Positions 1,989 to 9,852 of a stretch of 10,709 nt of DNA are shown here, piece by piece (position 1 is the first letter of the stretch; every line of letters starts with the position of its first letter). The position numbers and the translations under genes are program-made. The stretch covers positions 1 through 10,709 of the forward strand of contig USSR01000183.1 in assembly GCA_900557355.1 (NCBI GenBank), read 5' to 3'. This stretch comes from an uncultured Bacteroides sp. Lineage in GTDB: Bacteria; Bacteroidota; Bacteroidia; Bacteroidales; Bacteroidaceae. The notes under the pieces are model-generated. The model saw only the letters and a list, made by a program, of their open reading frames with translations, was not told where the DNA came from and made no database searches.

Positions 1989-2201
1989 ATGACAATAAAT
2001 GAATTATTTGGTATTAGAGTGAGAGAACAACGCATAGCATTAAATCTCTCACAAGAGAAATTGGCTAATATAGCCGACATAGACAGAACATACCTTCCTG
2101 ACATTGAAAATGGAAAGCGTAATGTTTCACTAGCTGTTGCCGAAAAAATAGCAAAAGCTTTAAATGTACCATTAACCAAACTTCTAGAAACACATGAGTA
2201 A
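1989..2201 (+). CDS. C protein: XRE-family controller of restriction-modification
   Basis: This 70-residue helix-turn-helix protein is the size of known C proteins. The HTH covers about residues 8-60, with the typical LSQEKLANIADIDRTYLPDI turn followed by ENGKRNVSL and KIAKALNV. C proteins bind as dimers to tandem C-boxes and first activate, then repress, their own gene and the linked restriction gene, which delays cutting until methylation is done. A TTG start at 1959 would add ten residues but lies inside the C-box, so the ATG at 1989 is preferred. The 3' end overlaps the R1 start by 8 bp (ATGAGTAA), so C and R1 are translationally coupled, the standard C-R order. A GAACTTTG at 1974-1981 is close to TAnnTTTG and could be a -7 element giving a nearly leaderless message. 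Confidence 0.8.
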   Translation: MTINELFGIRVREQRIALNLSQEKLANIADIDRTYLPDIENGKRNVSLAVAEKIAKALNVPLTKLLETHE

Positions 2202-3090
2202 TTTTGGAAAAACAGAACGCAAGATAAAAGACTTATTTTTATCCGAAAAAAAGTTCACTTACGAACAAGCCAACTATTCGGTATTAAAATGTGATAAGCC
2301 CACGTCCTCTAAAGGAGAATGCAAAACTGATGTATATGTATTAGCCCAAGATGACCTTGGTAATCAAAAAGAATTTAAAATATCAGTTAAACAAAACAAT
2401 GCTGATTTTCTAGAAAATAAAATTAGCTTGGATAGAGCAATTGAAATTTTAGGAAGCGACGCACAATCAATTATTGAAAGAAGCATTGCAAAAATAAAGA
2501 AAACCTTCGAAGATGATTACCTAGTATATTTCAAGCCATACAAGAAAACGAAAGCTTTAAGCTTGACAATGGGCTGGAAATTTGAGTTTATAAATAAGTT
2601 AGGAGGAAAGAAATGTGGAATTATAGATTTAACCGACCAACAAAAAATAGATATATATGCTGGTACAAATTTAAATTTAGATAAAAAAAATTCTAGCGTA
2701 AATGGTGAAACTGTCATAAATTCTGGGGTTGCTAATTACATTATAACTATAGATGCGCCCAATAAAGATTTAAATTATTATCTATCTAAGATGCAGCCTA
2801 TTGAACATTTTGCAAAACAACAAGATGTATATTTTGTTTGTAAAGCCTTAAACTACAGAGCCAACAAAGACAAATGGGATGGGGACAGATCATTGTCTGT
2901 GTATGTTAACTGGTTTCTAGATCAAGAAGGAAAACTCCAAGGAAAGCTCGTTTTCGAAAAGCCATTGTCAGTAAAAGGACATAGCATAGGCAAAAATATA
3001 AAAAACTTGTTAGCTACTTTGCAAATAAATAAGAACAATTTCCATGAACTAAATAAATATCTACACAAAGACGTTAGAAGAATTCAATAA
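2194..3090 (+). CDS. putative type II restriction endonuclease R1, PD-(D/E)XK type
   Basis: This is a 298-residue protein in the restriction-enzyme position of a C-R-M cluster, coupled to the C gene. I do not recognise the exact family. The segment GECKTDVYVL (41-50) followed by FKISVKQNNADFLENK (61-76) looks like the catalytic core of a PD-(D/E)XK nuclease: Asp46 and Lys66 fit the motif, Ser64 takes the place of the second acidic residue, and Glu42 may compensate. The remaining 220 residues are charged, lack membrane segments and probably carry the target-recognition surface (for example NKDKWDGDRSLSVYVNW). It is very AT-rich, like the C gene and unlike the GC-richer M2 and M3, which suggests that C and R1 arrived separately from the HaeIII-like module. 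The natural partner is M1. It could instead be a non-restriction nuclease, but context argues against that. Confidence 0.65.
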   Translation: MSNFGKTERKIKDLFLSEKKFTYEQANYSVLKCDKPTSSKGECKTDVYVLAQDDLGNQKEFKISVKQNNADFLENKISLDRAIEILGSDAQSIIERSIAKIKKTFEDDYLVYFKPYKKTKALSLTMGWKFEFINKLGGKKCGIIDLTDQQKIDIYAGTNLNLDKKNSSVNGETVINSGVANYIITIDAPNKDLNYYLSKMQPIEHFAKQQDVYFVCKALNYRANKDKWDGDRSLSVYVNWFLDQEGKLQGKLVFEKPLSVKGHSIGKNIKNLLATLQINKNNFHELNKYLHKDVRRIQ

Positions 3091-3117: not shown

Positions 3118-4644
3118 ATGGATATTTGGAGCAAAAAGAAACGTTCTGCCGTTATGGCAAAAATAAGGAGTAAAGACACAAAGCCAGAGTGGATTGTACG
3201 ACGTTACTTGTTTTCAAGAGGATACCGTTATCTCAAGAATGTAAAAGGATTGCCTGGTACACCCGATATAGTATTGCGTAAGTATGGTATTGTAATATTT
3301 ATCCATGGATGTTTTTGGCATGGGCACAAAGTAGACGGACATATTCCACATTCCAACAGTGATTATTGGCGTAATAAAATAAAGCGTAACCAACAAAGGG
3401 ATGAAAAGCATAAAGAGGTTTTAAAGAAAATGGGCTGGAAAGTAATGACTATTTGGGAATGCCAATTAAAACCTGCTGTAAGAGAACAGACATTACATGA
3501 AATGGAATACTGGATAAACCATAGCTTTTTAGAACATTATCGGCAAAAGCTTCCTAAAACTTATGAGATTACAGAAAATTCTCCCTGCATTGCAGCCGAT
3601 AATATAACGGAATATGAAAAAAAGAGAAATAAGAATGCTGTTTTTACAGGAGTTTCAGTAACTTCGCATCTAAATAAACACCCCATAATTATGAGTAGTA
3701 AAAGTAATGACCAAGGAAGGGCTTATGAATTCGTATGTTTGCTCACCCTTGAAGAAAAAATCAAAAAGCTTCGTCCTGTCAATATAATAAAAAATAGTAG
3801 TTACTCCGCAGCAGAACGTGCATGGTGCACTTTATCCAATGAGATGCAAGAGACTTACAAGGCAAGCTCTTATGTTGCCGTTGCTAAGATTTTTGAATTA
3901 GAGCCCCGTATCGTCGAGAACAATAATGACATTTTGGAATTACTGATACAGACAGACGCTAAAGGGAAAAAAGGTGATGTACGAGATATATTAATAATCC
4001 GGCACAACATCCAGTGGGAGATTGGGTTAAGCCTCAAGCATAACCATTTTGCAGTAAAACATAGCCGCCTAAGCAGAAGATTGGACTTTGGAAAAGAATG
4101 GTATGGAATTCCTTGTTCACAGGATTATTGGAATGGAGTTAAACCAATATTCGACTATCTCATTGCAGAAAAAAACAAACATACAAAATTTAATGAACTG
4201 ACAGATAAAGAAAATGACGTATACATACCCTTGCTAACAGCTTTTATAAATGAAATCAACCGACAATATCAGGTTCATAAGGACATCCCCGGCAAATTGG
4301 TAGAATACCTTTTAGGCAAGCATGATTTCTATAAAATAATTAGCATCGATAAAGAACAAACCACTCGGATTCAATCGTATAATTTGCACGGTACGCTCAA
4401 TCAAAACAGCGAATCAGAACAAGCATCCATTCAAATTCCAGTAGCATGTTTGCCTACACGCATTGTGAGTTTAGGTTTTGTTCCGGAGAAAACTAACACT
4501 GTTGAGCTTTATATGGATGGTGGTTGGCAGTTCTCTTTTCGCATACATAATGCAGAAACCTATGTTGTGCCAACTTTAAAGTTTGATATTCAAATAGTAG
4601 GCATGCCTACTGCTATAATCACAATAAATTGCCTTTGGAAATAA
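3118..4644 (+). CDS. Vsr mismatch endonuclease fused to HaeIII-family restriction endonuclease
   Basis: A single 508-residue frame joins two nucleases. Residues 1-135 are a Vsr very-short-patch repair endonuclease, which nicks beside T in T:G mismatches: Glu24, Asp50 in [14 protein letters not shown] at 63-70 (His68) and WEC at 113-115. One of the Cys ligands of the structural zinc in E. coli Vsr (C73) has no clear equivalent. After a linker at about 140-190, residues 192-508 are a complete HaeIII-type nuclease (GGCC): KGDVRD at 285-290, [19 protein letters not shown] at 300-318 (Asp287, Glu301, Lys307), and a C-terminal [11 protein letters not shown] segment. An internal ATG at 3691 (Met192) would give a 317-residue protein, about the length of HaeIII, so both fused and separate products are possible. 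The M2 ATG follows 2 or 5 bases after the stop. Confidence 0.85.
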
Positions 4645-4649
4645 ATATG

Positions 4650-5663
4650 ATGAACTTGATTAGCCTTTTTTCTGGTGCAGGAGGTCTTGATTTAGGCTTT
4701 CATAAAGCCGGTTTTAAAGTAGTTACAGCGAATGAATTTGATGCTAAAATTTGCCCGACCTTCCGAGCCAATTTTTCAGATACTAATCTAATTGAAGGAG
4801 ATATCCGTGATATACCATCATCCGAATTTCCGGATAATATTGCTGGTATAATAGGCGGACCTCCATGCCAGTCATGGAGTGAAGCAGGCTCTTTAAAGGG
4901 CATTGAGGATGCCCGGGGACAGTTATTCTACGAATACATTCGTATTTTACACGACAAACAGCCTTTGTTTTTTGTTGCTGAAAATGTATCCGGCATGTTG
5001 GCCAAGCGCCATACAGATGCCGTGCGTGGCTTCATGGAATTATTTGACAAAGCAGGCTATGATGTAAATTTGAAAATGCTTAATGCTAATGATTACGATG
5101 TGCCCGAGGACCGTGACCGTGTATTCTATATCGGATTCCGTAAAGATTTGAATATTCATAACTTTGAATATCCTACTCCCCAAAAACACAAACCAACACT
5201 ACGTGAAAGTATCTGGGACTTGCAATTTACAGCTATACCGGCTCTCGAAAAGAACAAGACAAATGGAAAGGCTTGCAAAATACCTAACAACGAGTATTTC
5301 ATTGGTGCATATTCGCCTATATTCTTATCCCGAAATCGAGTTCGTTCATGGGATGAACCAGGTTTCACGGTTCAAGCAAGCGGTCGCCAATGCCAACTGC
5401 ACCCTCAAGCACCTAAAATGATTAAGGTTGAAAAGAATCTGCAGAAGTTTGCTGAAGGATACGAACACCTTTACCGCAGGATGACAGTCCGTGAAGTTGC
5501 CCGTGTACAAAGTTTCCCTGATGAATTCCAGTTCATATATGATGATGTGAATTATGGTTATAAAATGATAGGTAATGCTGTACCAGTAAACTTGGCTTAT
5601 CATGTGGCAATGCAAATAAAGAAAACTTTGGTTGAAAAGGGAATCATTGTTGATTTGAAATGA
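4650..5663 (+). CDS. C5-cytosine DNA methyltransferase M2, M.HaeIII type (GGCC)
   Basis: This intact methylase adds a methyl group to carbon 5 of cytosine in the site cut by the adjacent HaeIII-like nuclease. At 337 residues it is close to M.HaeIII (330). Motif I is [11 protein letters not shown], the catalytic Cys is Cys73 in GGPPCQSW, then AENV, the [10 protein letters not shown] motif and [10 protein letters not shown]. The target-recognition segment [17 protein letters not shown] matches what I recall of M.HaeIII almost residue for residue, which supports GGCC specificity. The frame is open to TTG 4629, inside the nuclease gene. The double ATG at 4647/4650 fits better because MNLISLF is how M.HaeIII begins. 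The 3' end overlaps M3 in an ATGA, so the nuclease, M2 and M3 are very likely one transcript. Confidence 0.9.
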
Positions 5664-7039
5664 AAGTAGCATCTTTCTTTGCAGGATGTGGCGGACTAGA
5701 TCTTGGCTTCGAGCAGGCTGGTTATGAGGTTATCTGGGCGAATGAATTTGATGAAGGTATACACGAAACCTATCAGTTCAATCACCCAAATACATACCTA
5801 TGCAAATCCGATATCCGTACATTAAAGGCTGCTGATATTCCCGATTGCGATGGATTTATAGGAGGACCTCCATGCCAATCATGGAGCGAAGGTGGTAAAC
5901 AGTTAGGACTAAATGATGACCGGGGACGTTTGTTTCTTGACTATATCCAATTAATAAAACAAAAACGTCCCAAGTTTTTCATCATAGAGAACGTACAAGG
6001 AATGATAAGCGACAAGCATTTTAAAACCTTCCTGTCATTCCTTTCCAGCCTTGAATGTGCTGGTTACGTGGTAAGCTATTCGTTGCTGAATGCTGCTGAT
6101 TACTGCATACCGCAAGATCGCTTCCGTGTATTTATTGTTGGCTTCATAAAAGAACTGAATGGCGCATTCAAATTTCCGGAACCATCACAAAAGCCTCTGG
6201 TAACACTGCAAAAAGCAATTGGTGACATTACTGAAGAACCACATCTATATGACAATGAACGCGTAAACCAAGAATATGAGAAATGGACTAACCATGACGT
6301 TTTTACCGGTCCGTTCGATACAAAATTTATGGCCCGTAATCGCGTACGTTCTTGGGATGAAGTATCATTTACCATACAAGCACAGGCTAAAAATTGCCCT
6401 TTACATCCGCAGGCACCAGTTATGAAGTACGTTTCCCCCAATCAACGCATCTTTCTTCCCGGTTATGAACACCTCTACCGTCGATTAAGCGTGAGGGAAT
6501 GCGCCAGAATCCAATCATTCCCCGATAAATTCCGTTTTTCCTATACACATATAAAAGAAGGTTATAAGATGGTGGGAAATGCTGTACCCCCTCGGCTGGC
6601 CAGATGCTTAGCTTTAAGCATCAAAGATGCTCTAGGCTCTATGAACGGAAAAAAGGAAGCAGACGTTCTTGTTGCTTATTATAAAGACGAACACCAATTA
6701 CGCATGACATTGAGGAACAAACTTTATTATGTACGCACAGGGTTTCGCAGAGGAGCATTGCAAATGCCAATAGGAGCTACTTCCCCTAAATATCTGTTGC
6801 TACACAATTGCAGTAACAGATATTTGTATGCAATGGTAGAAGATCACCCGAAAGTCATGTCTGGGTCAGAACTATCCTACCTTGGTTTTGCCCCTTCCGG
6901 CAATGAATACCTGACGTTCAAACTAAAAACTGCGGAATGTATCAATCTTGAATGCTTGAATTTAGCAGATGTAAAATTCCGAGGCAATAAAAGAGATATA
7001 GCAATCCCTTATATCGCCAACATTCAAGAACTTTTTTAA
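5660..7039 (+). CDS. C5-cytosine DNA methyltransferase M3 with C-terminal extension
   Basis: This is a third cytosine-5 methylase, 459 residues. Residues 1-330 form a full catalytic domain: [11 protein letters not shown], Cys72 in [11 protein letters not shown] at 110-112, [21 protein letters not shown] and GNAVPPRLA. The target-recognition segment ([17 protein letters not shown], about 237-253) differs from M1 and M2, so a different site is likely. Residues 331-459 are an extra domain absent from M1 and M2, with [18 protein letters not shown] and [19 protein letters not shown], probably beta-rich; I cannot assign it. It may be an added DNA-reading domain or a partner-binding module. The ATG overlaps the M2 stop by 4 bases. 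No restriction gene lies downstream, so M3 is an orphan or protects against R1. Confidence 0.85.
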
Positions 7040-7075
7040 AACAAAGCATACATTACAACTACCTCAAAACAGGAA

Positions 7076-7279
7076 TTATTTAACAATAGCTCTTTCACTC
7101 TTTTTTTCAATTTTAAGTATCCCATCATCGGGAAACTGATTTTGAGCAAGTTTCAGTATTTCCCAAAAGAAATGAGAATCTTTCAAAGCTGAAATCATTT
7201 TTCCATTAGATACTCTAGGCATCTCCCCTTCTTCGCATTTTCTATATTGGTTATCGCCAAAAACTAAAAAATTAAACAT
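7076..7279 (-). pseudogene. C-terminal remnant of an MqsA/YgiT-like XRE antitoxin
   Basis: The 67-codon frame carries FGDNQYRKCEEGEMPRVSNG and then KMISALKDSHFF, which resembles the second half of the helix-turn-helix in MqsA/YgiT-type antitoxins (pattern: GxNxYRxYExGExPSxSN). The N-terminal zinc-finger and the start of the HTH, which would lie to the right, are missing: a TGA sits directly upstream of the ATG, and the DNA beyond belongs to a different, opposed gene fragment. No toxin partner is present. The family resemblance is from memory. A real short standalone protein is the less likely alternative. Confidence 0.45.
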
Positions 7280-7288
7280 TCAAAGTGC

Positions 7289-7490
7289 ATGCATACCATC
7301 CAAGCAAGTAAAGGCTATACGTAAGCAATACAATCTTACACAAATCGAGTTATCTAAAAAATCAGGAGTGGGATTACGTTTTGTTCGTGAATTGGAACAA
7401 GGCAAACAGACTCTTCGAGTAGATAAAGTAAACCAAATACTAAATCAGTTTGGAAGTGAAGTAGGCGTAGTGCAAATAAATATCACTTAA
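7289..7490 (+). pseudogene. HipB-like XRE antitoxin fragment, start lost by frameshift
   Basis: The frame ending at TAA 7488-7490 reads VKAIRKQYNLTQIELSKKSG, then VGLRFVRELEQGKQTLRVDK, then VNQILNQFGSEVGVVQINIT. This is a typical HipB/y4mF-type helix-turn-helix from its first helix to its C-terminus. It has no ATG, GTG or TTG in frame. An ATG at 7289 reads MHTIQASK, the kind of beginning these proteins have, but is out of frame and stops after 11 codons, so a small indel around 7300-7312 appears to separate start and body. No hipA toxin gene follows; the next gene is a TetR regulator. The ORF is too interrupted to be expected to give protein. Confidence 0.6.
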
Positions 7491-9788: not shown

Positions 9789-9852
9789 GCTTTTTTCAAT
9801 TATAATCGAAAAAGCCAGAGTAAAAACACGTTTTCTCGATTATAATCGAAAA
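9789..9852. repeat. two palindromic direct repeats, 40-bp period, in a convergent gap
   Basis: ATTATAATCGAAAA occurs at 9799-9812 and at 9839-9852, exactly 40 bases apart. Both copies are inverted repeats: TCGATTATAATCGA (9836-9849) is perfect and TCAATTATAATCGA (9796-9809) has one mismatch. The first can also fold as a longer hairpin with a GCTTTTT/AAAAAGC stem. They lie in the 138-base space between the converging EFR1 and TIGR02757 genes. They may act as bidirectional terminators of AT-rich type, or be paired protein sites. Neither has a classical GC-rich stem. Confidence 0.55.

Follow-up and report, generated by a model that had tools for sequence, protein, structure and literature searches.

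The window, by which we mean the whole stretch of DNA analysed here (10,709 nt of contig USSR01000183.1 from an uncultured Bacteroides sp.), holds a frame in which a Vsr-type repair nuclease runs without a break into a HaeIII-type restriction enzyme. This situation raises the question of whether the two belong to an established two-domain protein or whether two neighbouring genes have come to share one frame.

Reading the window, we find one open frame of 508 codons that ends in TAA (Table 1). Profile searches place PF03852 at residues 1-72 (E 1.6e-30; 105.2 bits against a curated cut-off of 27) and TIGR00632 at residues 1-116 (132.5 bits; curated cut-off 97.85), and the Vsr call for the first part is common to three libraries (PF03852, TIGR00632 and PADLOC Vsr). 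The second part matches PF09556 at residues 200-497 over the full length of the profile (1-298 of 298; E 3.8e-145, 483 bits). When solved structures were compared by sequence, the Vsr chains 1cw0, 1vsr and 1odg were significant relatives of the first part only.

Table 1. Positions of the fused frame, its parts and the two methylase genes that follow it, in window coordinates.
Feature	Positions	Strand	Basis
Fused frame: Vsr, linker and HaeIII-family restriction endonuclease (508 aa)	3118..4644	+	open frame and domain searches
Vsr domain (residues 1-143)	3118..3546	+	PF03852, TIGR00632, residue conservation, structure model
Linker, predicted unstructured (residues 144-191)	3547..3690	+	pLDDT <50 at 150-191; alignment with split loci
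Seven-A run keeping both genes in one frame	3617..3623	+	re-reading at other run lengths; P0123, P0002, P0122
HaeIII-family restriction endonuclease with its own ATG (residues 192-508; 317 aa when separate)	3691..4644	+	PF09556
M1, cytosine-5 methyltransferase of M.HaeIII type, GGCC expected	4650..5663	+	1dct (M.HaeIII), 489 bits over 1-324
M2, second M.HaeIII-like methyltransferase with ~130 extra C-terminal residues	5660..7039	+	1dct, 352 bits over 2-325

We checked the conserved residues of the Vsr half against 23 aligned sequences and against E. coli Vsr. M13, E24, D50, C65, F66, W67, H68, H70 and C115 are invariant among the 23, and H63 is nearly so (at least 90% of them). At the catalytic and wedge positions of E. 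coli Vsr, the half retains all of M13, E24, D50, H63, F66, W67 and H68. Of the zinc site of E. coli Vsr (C66, H71, C73 and C117), C65, H70 and C115 are kept here, and the position of C73 is not a cysteine. By family models and retained residues, the first half is a predicted Vsr mismatch endonuclease, and the second, by its full-length PF09556 match, is a HaeIII-family restriction endonuclease. The preliminary description of this locus had proposed an uninterrupted 508-residue frame with a whole Vsr and a whole HaeIII-type nuclease, and the frame together with PF03852, TIGR00632 and PF09556 bears this out.

Structure prediction, which that description had recommended, gave two folding parts and an unstructured linker. 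Foldseek found no match at E ≤0.001 for the whole 508-residue model against the PDB, and the model was then compared with solved structures by VIA-align. The enzyme half is predicted to adopt a restriction-enzyme fold of the PD-(D/E)XK class, to which HinP1I and MspI belong. The Vsr half had low confidence in the whole model because the alignment adds only enzymes, and it was therefore folded separately. Folded alone, 13 of its first 14 ten-residue blocks exceeded pLDDT 80, and its best solved structural matches were 1cw0 and 1vsr. Two mixed alignments were kept out of the structure work: A1, where separate Vsr rows fell against the enzyme (its 34 rows of at least 300 aa served for the conservation count only), and A3, which was judged from low identities alone to place enzymes against Vsr. 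Aligned with the split loci described below, the linker consists of the Vsr tail and a stretch that is intergenic there; its residues 169-191 are read in this frame only if the genes are fused. With a fold predicted for each domain and an unstructured stretch of about 45 residues linking the two, a two-headed enzyme is plausible.

The ATG at 3691, residue 192 of the frame, lies at the domain boundary and had been proposed as a start for the enzyme alone. A search of about 5.8 billion proteins returned 3548 relatives, and lengths were compared for the best 120. Ninety of these 120 are exactly 317 aa, which is the size of a protein that runs from residue 192 to the last, and 111 fall at 316-320 aa. 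The 317-residue forms P0003, P0006 and P0009 begin at residue 192, and across 37 aligned rows M192 hardly varies. By these comparisons, the separate enzyme has its start codon at 3691, as had been suggested.

How common is the joined form? Among the best 120 of the 3548 relatives, one, the 508-aa P0002, has both domains. A search with the Vsr half, limited to proteins of 280-889 aa, gave 47 candidates and 30 matches; these were one Vsr-HaeIII protein (P0002 again), one Vsr-NgoPII protein (P0242, on one contig), 15 with a cytosine-methyltransferase domain (P0249, P0251, P0252, P0254-P0261, P0264-P0266 and P0269) and 13 others. Of the four methyltransferase fusions that were read, P0249 carries Vsr at its C-terminal end, and P0252, P0254 and P0264 carry it at the N-terminal end. 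Besides these, the 657-residue P0045 (69 member sequences, 1 contig) combines a HaeIII-family enzyme with a cytosine methyltransferase domain. The database search for the same two-domain order, also recommended beforehand, thus found P0002 as the sole Vsr-HaeIII cluster among the results listed, and these counts agree with the earlier view that the fusion is rare. The same order in several divergent lineages was not found among these proteins, and a dedicated Vsr-HaeIII family was rejected on the single cluster with both domains. Our literature search, with most subscription journals and REBASE outside its coverage, found no paper on a Vsr-restriction-enzyme fusion.

Taking one genome per species, we compared 49 loci. 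Six have both a Vsr and an enzyme match, none of them fused, and among these six vsr lies directly upstream on the same strand only in L001 (Bacteroides ihuae), L005 (an uncultured Odoribacter) and L035 (Parabacteroides chinchillae). The two genes stand apart in L035 and L005, where 59 nt and 49 nt, respectively, lie between the vsr stop and the enzyme start. The enzyme frame is closed 18 nt (L035) and 39 nt (L005) upstream of its ATG, so one indel at the vsr end could not fuse them. In L001, near 7001-7335, several stops and frame changes interrupt vsr; the enzyme, again separate, and both methylases are open there despite the broken vsr. Measured against L035, dN/dS is 0.075 for vsr, 0.053 for the enzyme and 0.037 for M1; these low values, which bear on the genes and not on the fusion, indicate that all three have been under constraint.

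Wider genome sets gave no uninterrupted fusion among the matches listed. The family of B. ihuae had some match in 217 of 399 genomes, a search in which weak-scoring fused copies could escape and a strong one would rank first. For the order of the L005 Odoribacter, 11 of 393 genomes matched at E 1e-60; the 399- and 393-genome sets are draws from larger groups and partly overlap. DNA matches were found in 14 of 158 genomes of the B. ihuae genus and in 7 of 123 of the P. chinchillae family, both with 3400-4644 as the query, which distant copies would escape. Mobile elements were searched as well. None of the 201 plasmid records or 32 phage records with a match holds at least 80% of the query in one place, the 25 plasmid records and 1 phage record that matched at the DNA level all fall short of 80% coverage of the query, and a pattern search of viral_contigs gave no match. 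Spread of the fusion by plasmids or phages was rejected on these grounds.

We then looked at what keeps the frame open. Within 3540-3690, continuity depends on one homopolymer, the run of seven A's listed in Table 1. Re-reading the window with run lengths of 4-10, we obtained the fusion with 4, 7 and 10 only, whereas a run of 5, 8 or 9 stops Vsr at 170, 171 or 181 residues. With six A's, the window encodes a 180-residue Vsr that is identical at 180 of 180 positions to P0123, the closest separate Vsr (180 aa). Against the seven-A window, P0123 agrees over the first 168 residues and then differs at all 12 remaining positions; its six-A state is deduced from this protein identity, not from its DNA. 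The seven-A reading is also found outside the window, in P0002 (506 of 508 residues identical, both differences in the restriction half) and in P0122 (249 aa), whose residues 1-241 are identical to the window frame and span the junction. The run length thus appears, from the proteins, to differ between near-identical sequences and to shift the frame.

The P0123 cluster has 84 member sequences on 45 contigs, the longest of 6,806,968 bases, and one source names Bacteroides ovatus. Since P0002 and P0123 are 90% clusters, membership does not make every member fused, or split; with that reservation, the size of the P0002 cluster (448 member sequences, 10 contigs) suggests that the seven-A allele may recur and that selection for it is possible. 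At the homologous place the run has 5 A's in L035 and L001 and 6 in L005. When the window is read with six A's, the enzyme frame extends without a stop for 72 nt ahead of its ATG, and 43 nt of it lie within vsr; 24 consecutive sense codons there seem unremarkable. The preliminary description had pointed to a frameshift near 3540-3690 as the weak point of the fused reading. None is present in the window, but one is implied as a natural allele by the match of the six-A reading to P0123.

Downstream, M.HaeIII is the best solved relative of both M1 and M2. The start of M1 was set by its likeness to M.HaeIII, and the open-frame reading begins at 4656. Just before the conserved RR.TVRE motif, M1 and M.HaeIII have an identical 17-residue stretch in which M2 differs; GGCC is therefore the probable target of M1 and a less certain one for M2. 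As two M.HaeIII-like methylases follow the enzyme, the target of the operon is probably GGCC, and we infer GGCC cutting by the enzyme half from the M.HaeIII-like M1. The order enzyme-M1-M2 is kept in L001, L002 and L035. The extra C-terminal residues of M2 lie at 6650-7039, beyond the methyltransferase match, and such an extension is also seen in the 460-residue M2 of L001 and L035.

Upstream lies another system, made of a controller-like gene (1959-2201), a restriction enzyme (2194-3090) and a divergent, frameshifted methyltransferase. The latter, at 865-1856 on the minus strand, is the third cytosine-5 methyltransferase of the window and is split by a frameshift around 1470-1490. The 2194-3090 enzyme would have no methylase of its own, except if M1 or M2 takes on that role. 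A similar pair of controller and restriction enzyme is found in P. chinchillae (L035:11315-12444), downstream of vsr, restriction enzyme, M1 and M2; the two systems are neighbours in both places, in a different order. Farther along the window, two 22-nt copies that are 91% alike and 40 nt apart occupy 9791-9852, between a ferredoxin-like and a TIGR02757 gene.

Taken together, these observations make it likely that the locus is a GGCC-type operon (vsr, restriction enzyme, M1, M2), to judge by its relatives that of a Bacteroides-group gut bacterium, in which a one-base change in an A-run joined vsr to the enzyme. The change in the length of this short run near the 3' end of vsr would remove the vsr stop and set the gene in frame with the enzyme gene downstream. 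Translation from 3118 would then yield Vsr, tether and HaeIII domain as one protein of 508 residues, and ATG 3691 may still give rise to some of the 317-residue enzyme. M1, perhaps M2, would methylate host GGCC sites, incoming DNA would be cut by the enzyme half at GGCC sites that lack methylation, and T:G mismatches arising when 5-methylcytosine is deaminated would be nicked by the Vsr half. With whole domains and a tether predicted to be unstructured, the halves probably act much as when separate, and the fusion is probably near-neutral. It appears to be a run-length allele of an adjacent gene pair and not an established two-domain family: a real sequence feature with ordinary parts and an unusual junction.

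The preliminary description had gone further and suggested that the fusion would tie T:G repair to restriction. A fixed architecture of this kind finds no support here, as the six-A reading equals the free Vsr of the P0123 cluster and as L035 and L005 have two unfused genes. V.NgoAXIII is reported to act on T:G mismatches whatever the surrounding nucleotides (PMC6116569), which means that the recognition sites of a Vsr and its partner need not coincide.

Could the run be a reversible switch? In a phase-variable tract, 6 or 8 A's would give Vsr and the enzyme as free proteins and 7 A's the fused one, and toggling between the two states by one-base strand slippage would change how much repair and restriction there is, or where they act. 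Six-A and seven-A readings on otherwise near-identical sequence fit such toggling, as does the restriction of fusion to three of the run lengths read. There is also a precedent in PMC6789123, where a phase-variable G homopolymer truncates the specificity subunit of NgoAV in Neisseria gonorrhoeae. However, the run is shorter still in the three related loci, and the enzyme would never be off in any state as its own ATG remains. Seven A's are, moreover, short for a phase-variable tract. We therefore hold a switch to be unlikely, and somewhat more so its extended form, in which a gut commensal alternates between the free pair and tethered Vsr-HaeIII while an in-phase A AAA AAG heptamer possibly frees some Vsr even when the genes are fused.

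A sequencing or assembly error, with a true run of six A's and separate genes, deserves attention since the frameshifted 865-1856 methyltransferase calls for care about indels in this record, and P0123 implies a split allele one A different. That frameshift is not in the longest nearby run (1534), though, and 7 A's at 2246 and 8 A's at 2683 leave the enzyme gene 2194-3090 open. P0002 and P0122, moreover, read through the junction in the same frame. With both readings found outside the window, a plain error is quite improbable.

Selection for a two-headed enzyme, whose tether would be beneficial by fixing the Vsr/enzyme ratio or bringing repair to GGCC sites, would fit the complete folds predicted here and the recurrence of Vsr fusions with methyltransferases (15 of the 30 long Vsr proteins) and with an NgoPII-type enzyme (P0242). 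Yet those other 16 fusions have 1-4 member sequences each, the enzyme match of P0242 stops at profile position 217 of 262, and Vsr-HaeIII is a single cluster among the results listed; we consider such selection very unlikely. Programmed frameshifting at A AAA AAG (3618-3624), a slippery heptamer of the E. coli dnaX type, would give free 171-residue Vsr beside the fused protein from one gene; the heptamer is in the right phase for a -1 slip, which reads two further codons to a TAA as in the eight-A reading. This we consider extremely improbable, since in-phase A6[AG] also occurs at 2247 (gene 2194-3090) and 6649 (gene 5660-7039), the heptamer itself depends on the seven-A allele and only -9.6 kcal/mol (a value with no shuffle control) is predicted for folding of the 110 nt that begin at 3618.

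With a run-length allele as the preferred reading, the locus suggests that a single slipped base can join adjacent genes of a restriction operon and leave the start codon of the second gene in place. It would capture in nature one way in which restriction enzymes of several domains could come about. Should cells produce the fused protein, and should the run length differ among cells of a clone, the locus would act as a switch, to our knowledge uncharacterised, between a state in which repair and restriction are separate and one in which they are tethered. If not, the locus offers a caution, as one base in an A-run decides here between one gene and two.

Comparing the locus with known systems, we find that E. 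coli Vsr (1cw0/1vsr) shares its fold, its domain length and most of the catalytic, wedge and zinc residues with the Vsr half; the position of the zinc ligand C73 is a non-cysteine in the window, and only the window has a second enzyme in the same frame. The HaeIII system (GGCC) has the PF09556 enzyme family in common, and M1 is closest to M.HaeIII among solved structures, but the window adds an upstream vsr and a second methylase, and its allele joins the enzyme to Vsr. In the Vsr-methyltransferase fusions (P0249, P0252, P0254, P0264) and in Vsr-NgoPII (P0242), as in the window, Vsr is joined to a restriction-modification partner; there, the partner is a methylase or an enzyme of another restriction family, and Vsr is N- or C-terminal. 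NgoPII also cuts GGCC. Removal of a frameshift likewise joined two restriction-modification genes, hsdM and hsdS of EcoKI, into a working fused restriction system, as PMC3510504 reports; that fusion was engineered, is Type I and unites subunits of one enzyme. In the L035 and L005 pairs, vsr, restriction enzyme and M1 follow one another on one strand as in the window, with M2 too in L035, whereas vsr and enzyme keep separate frames.
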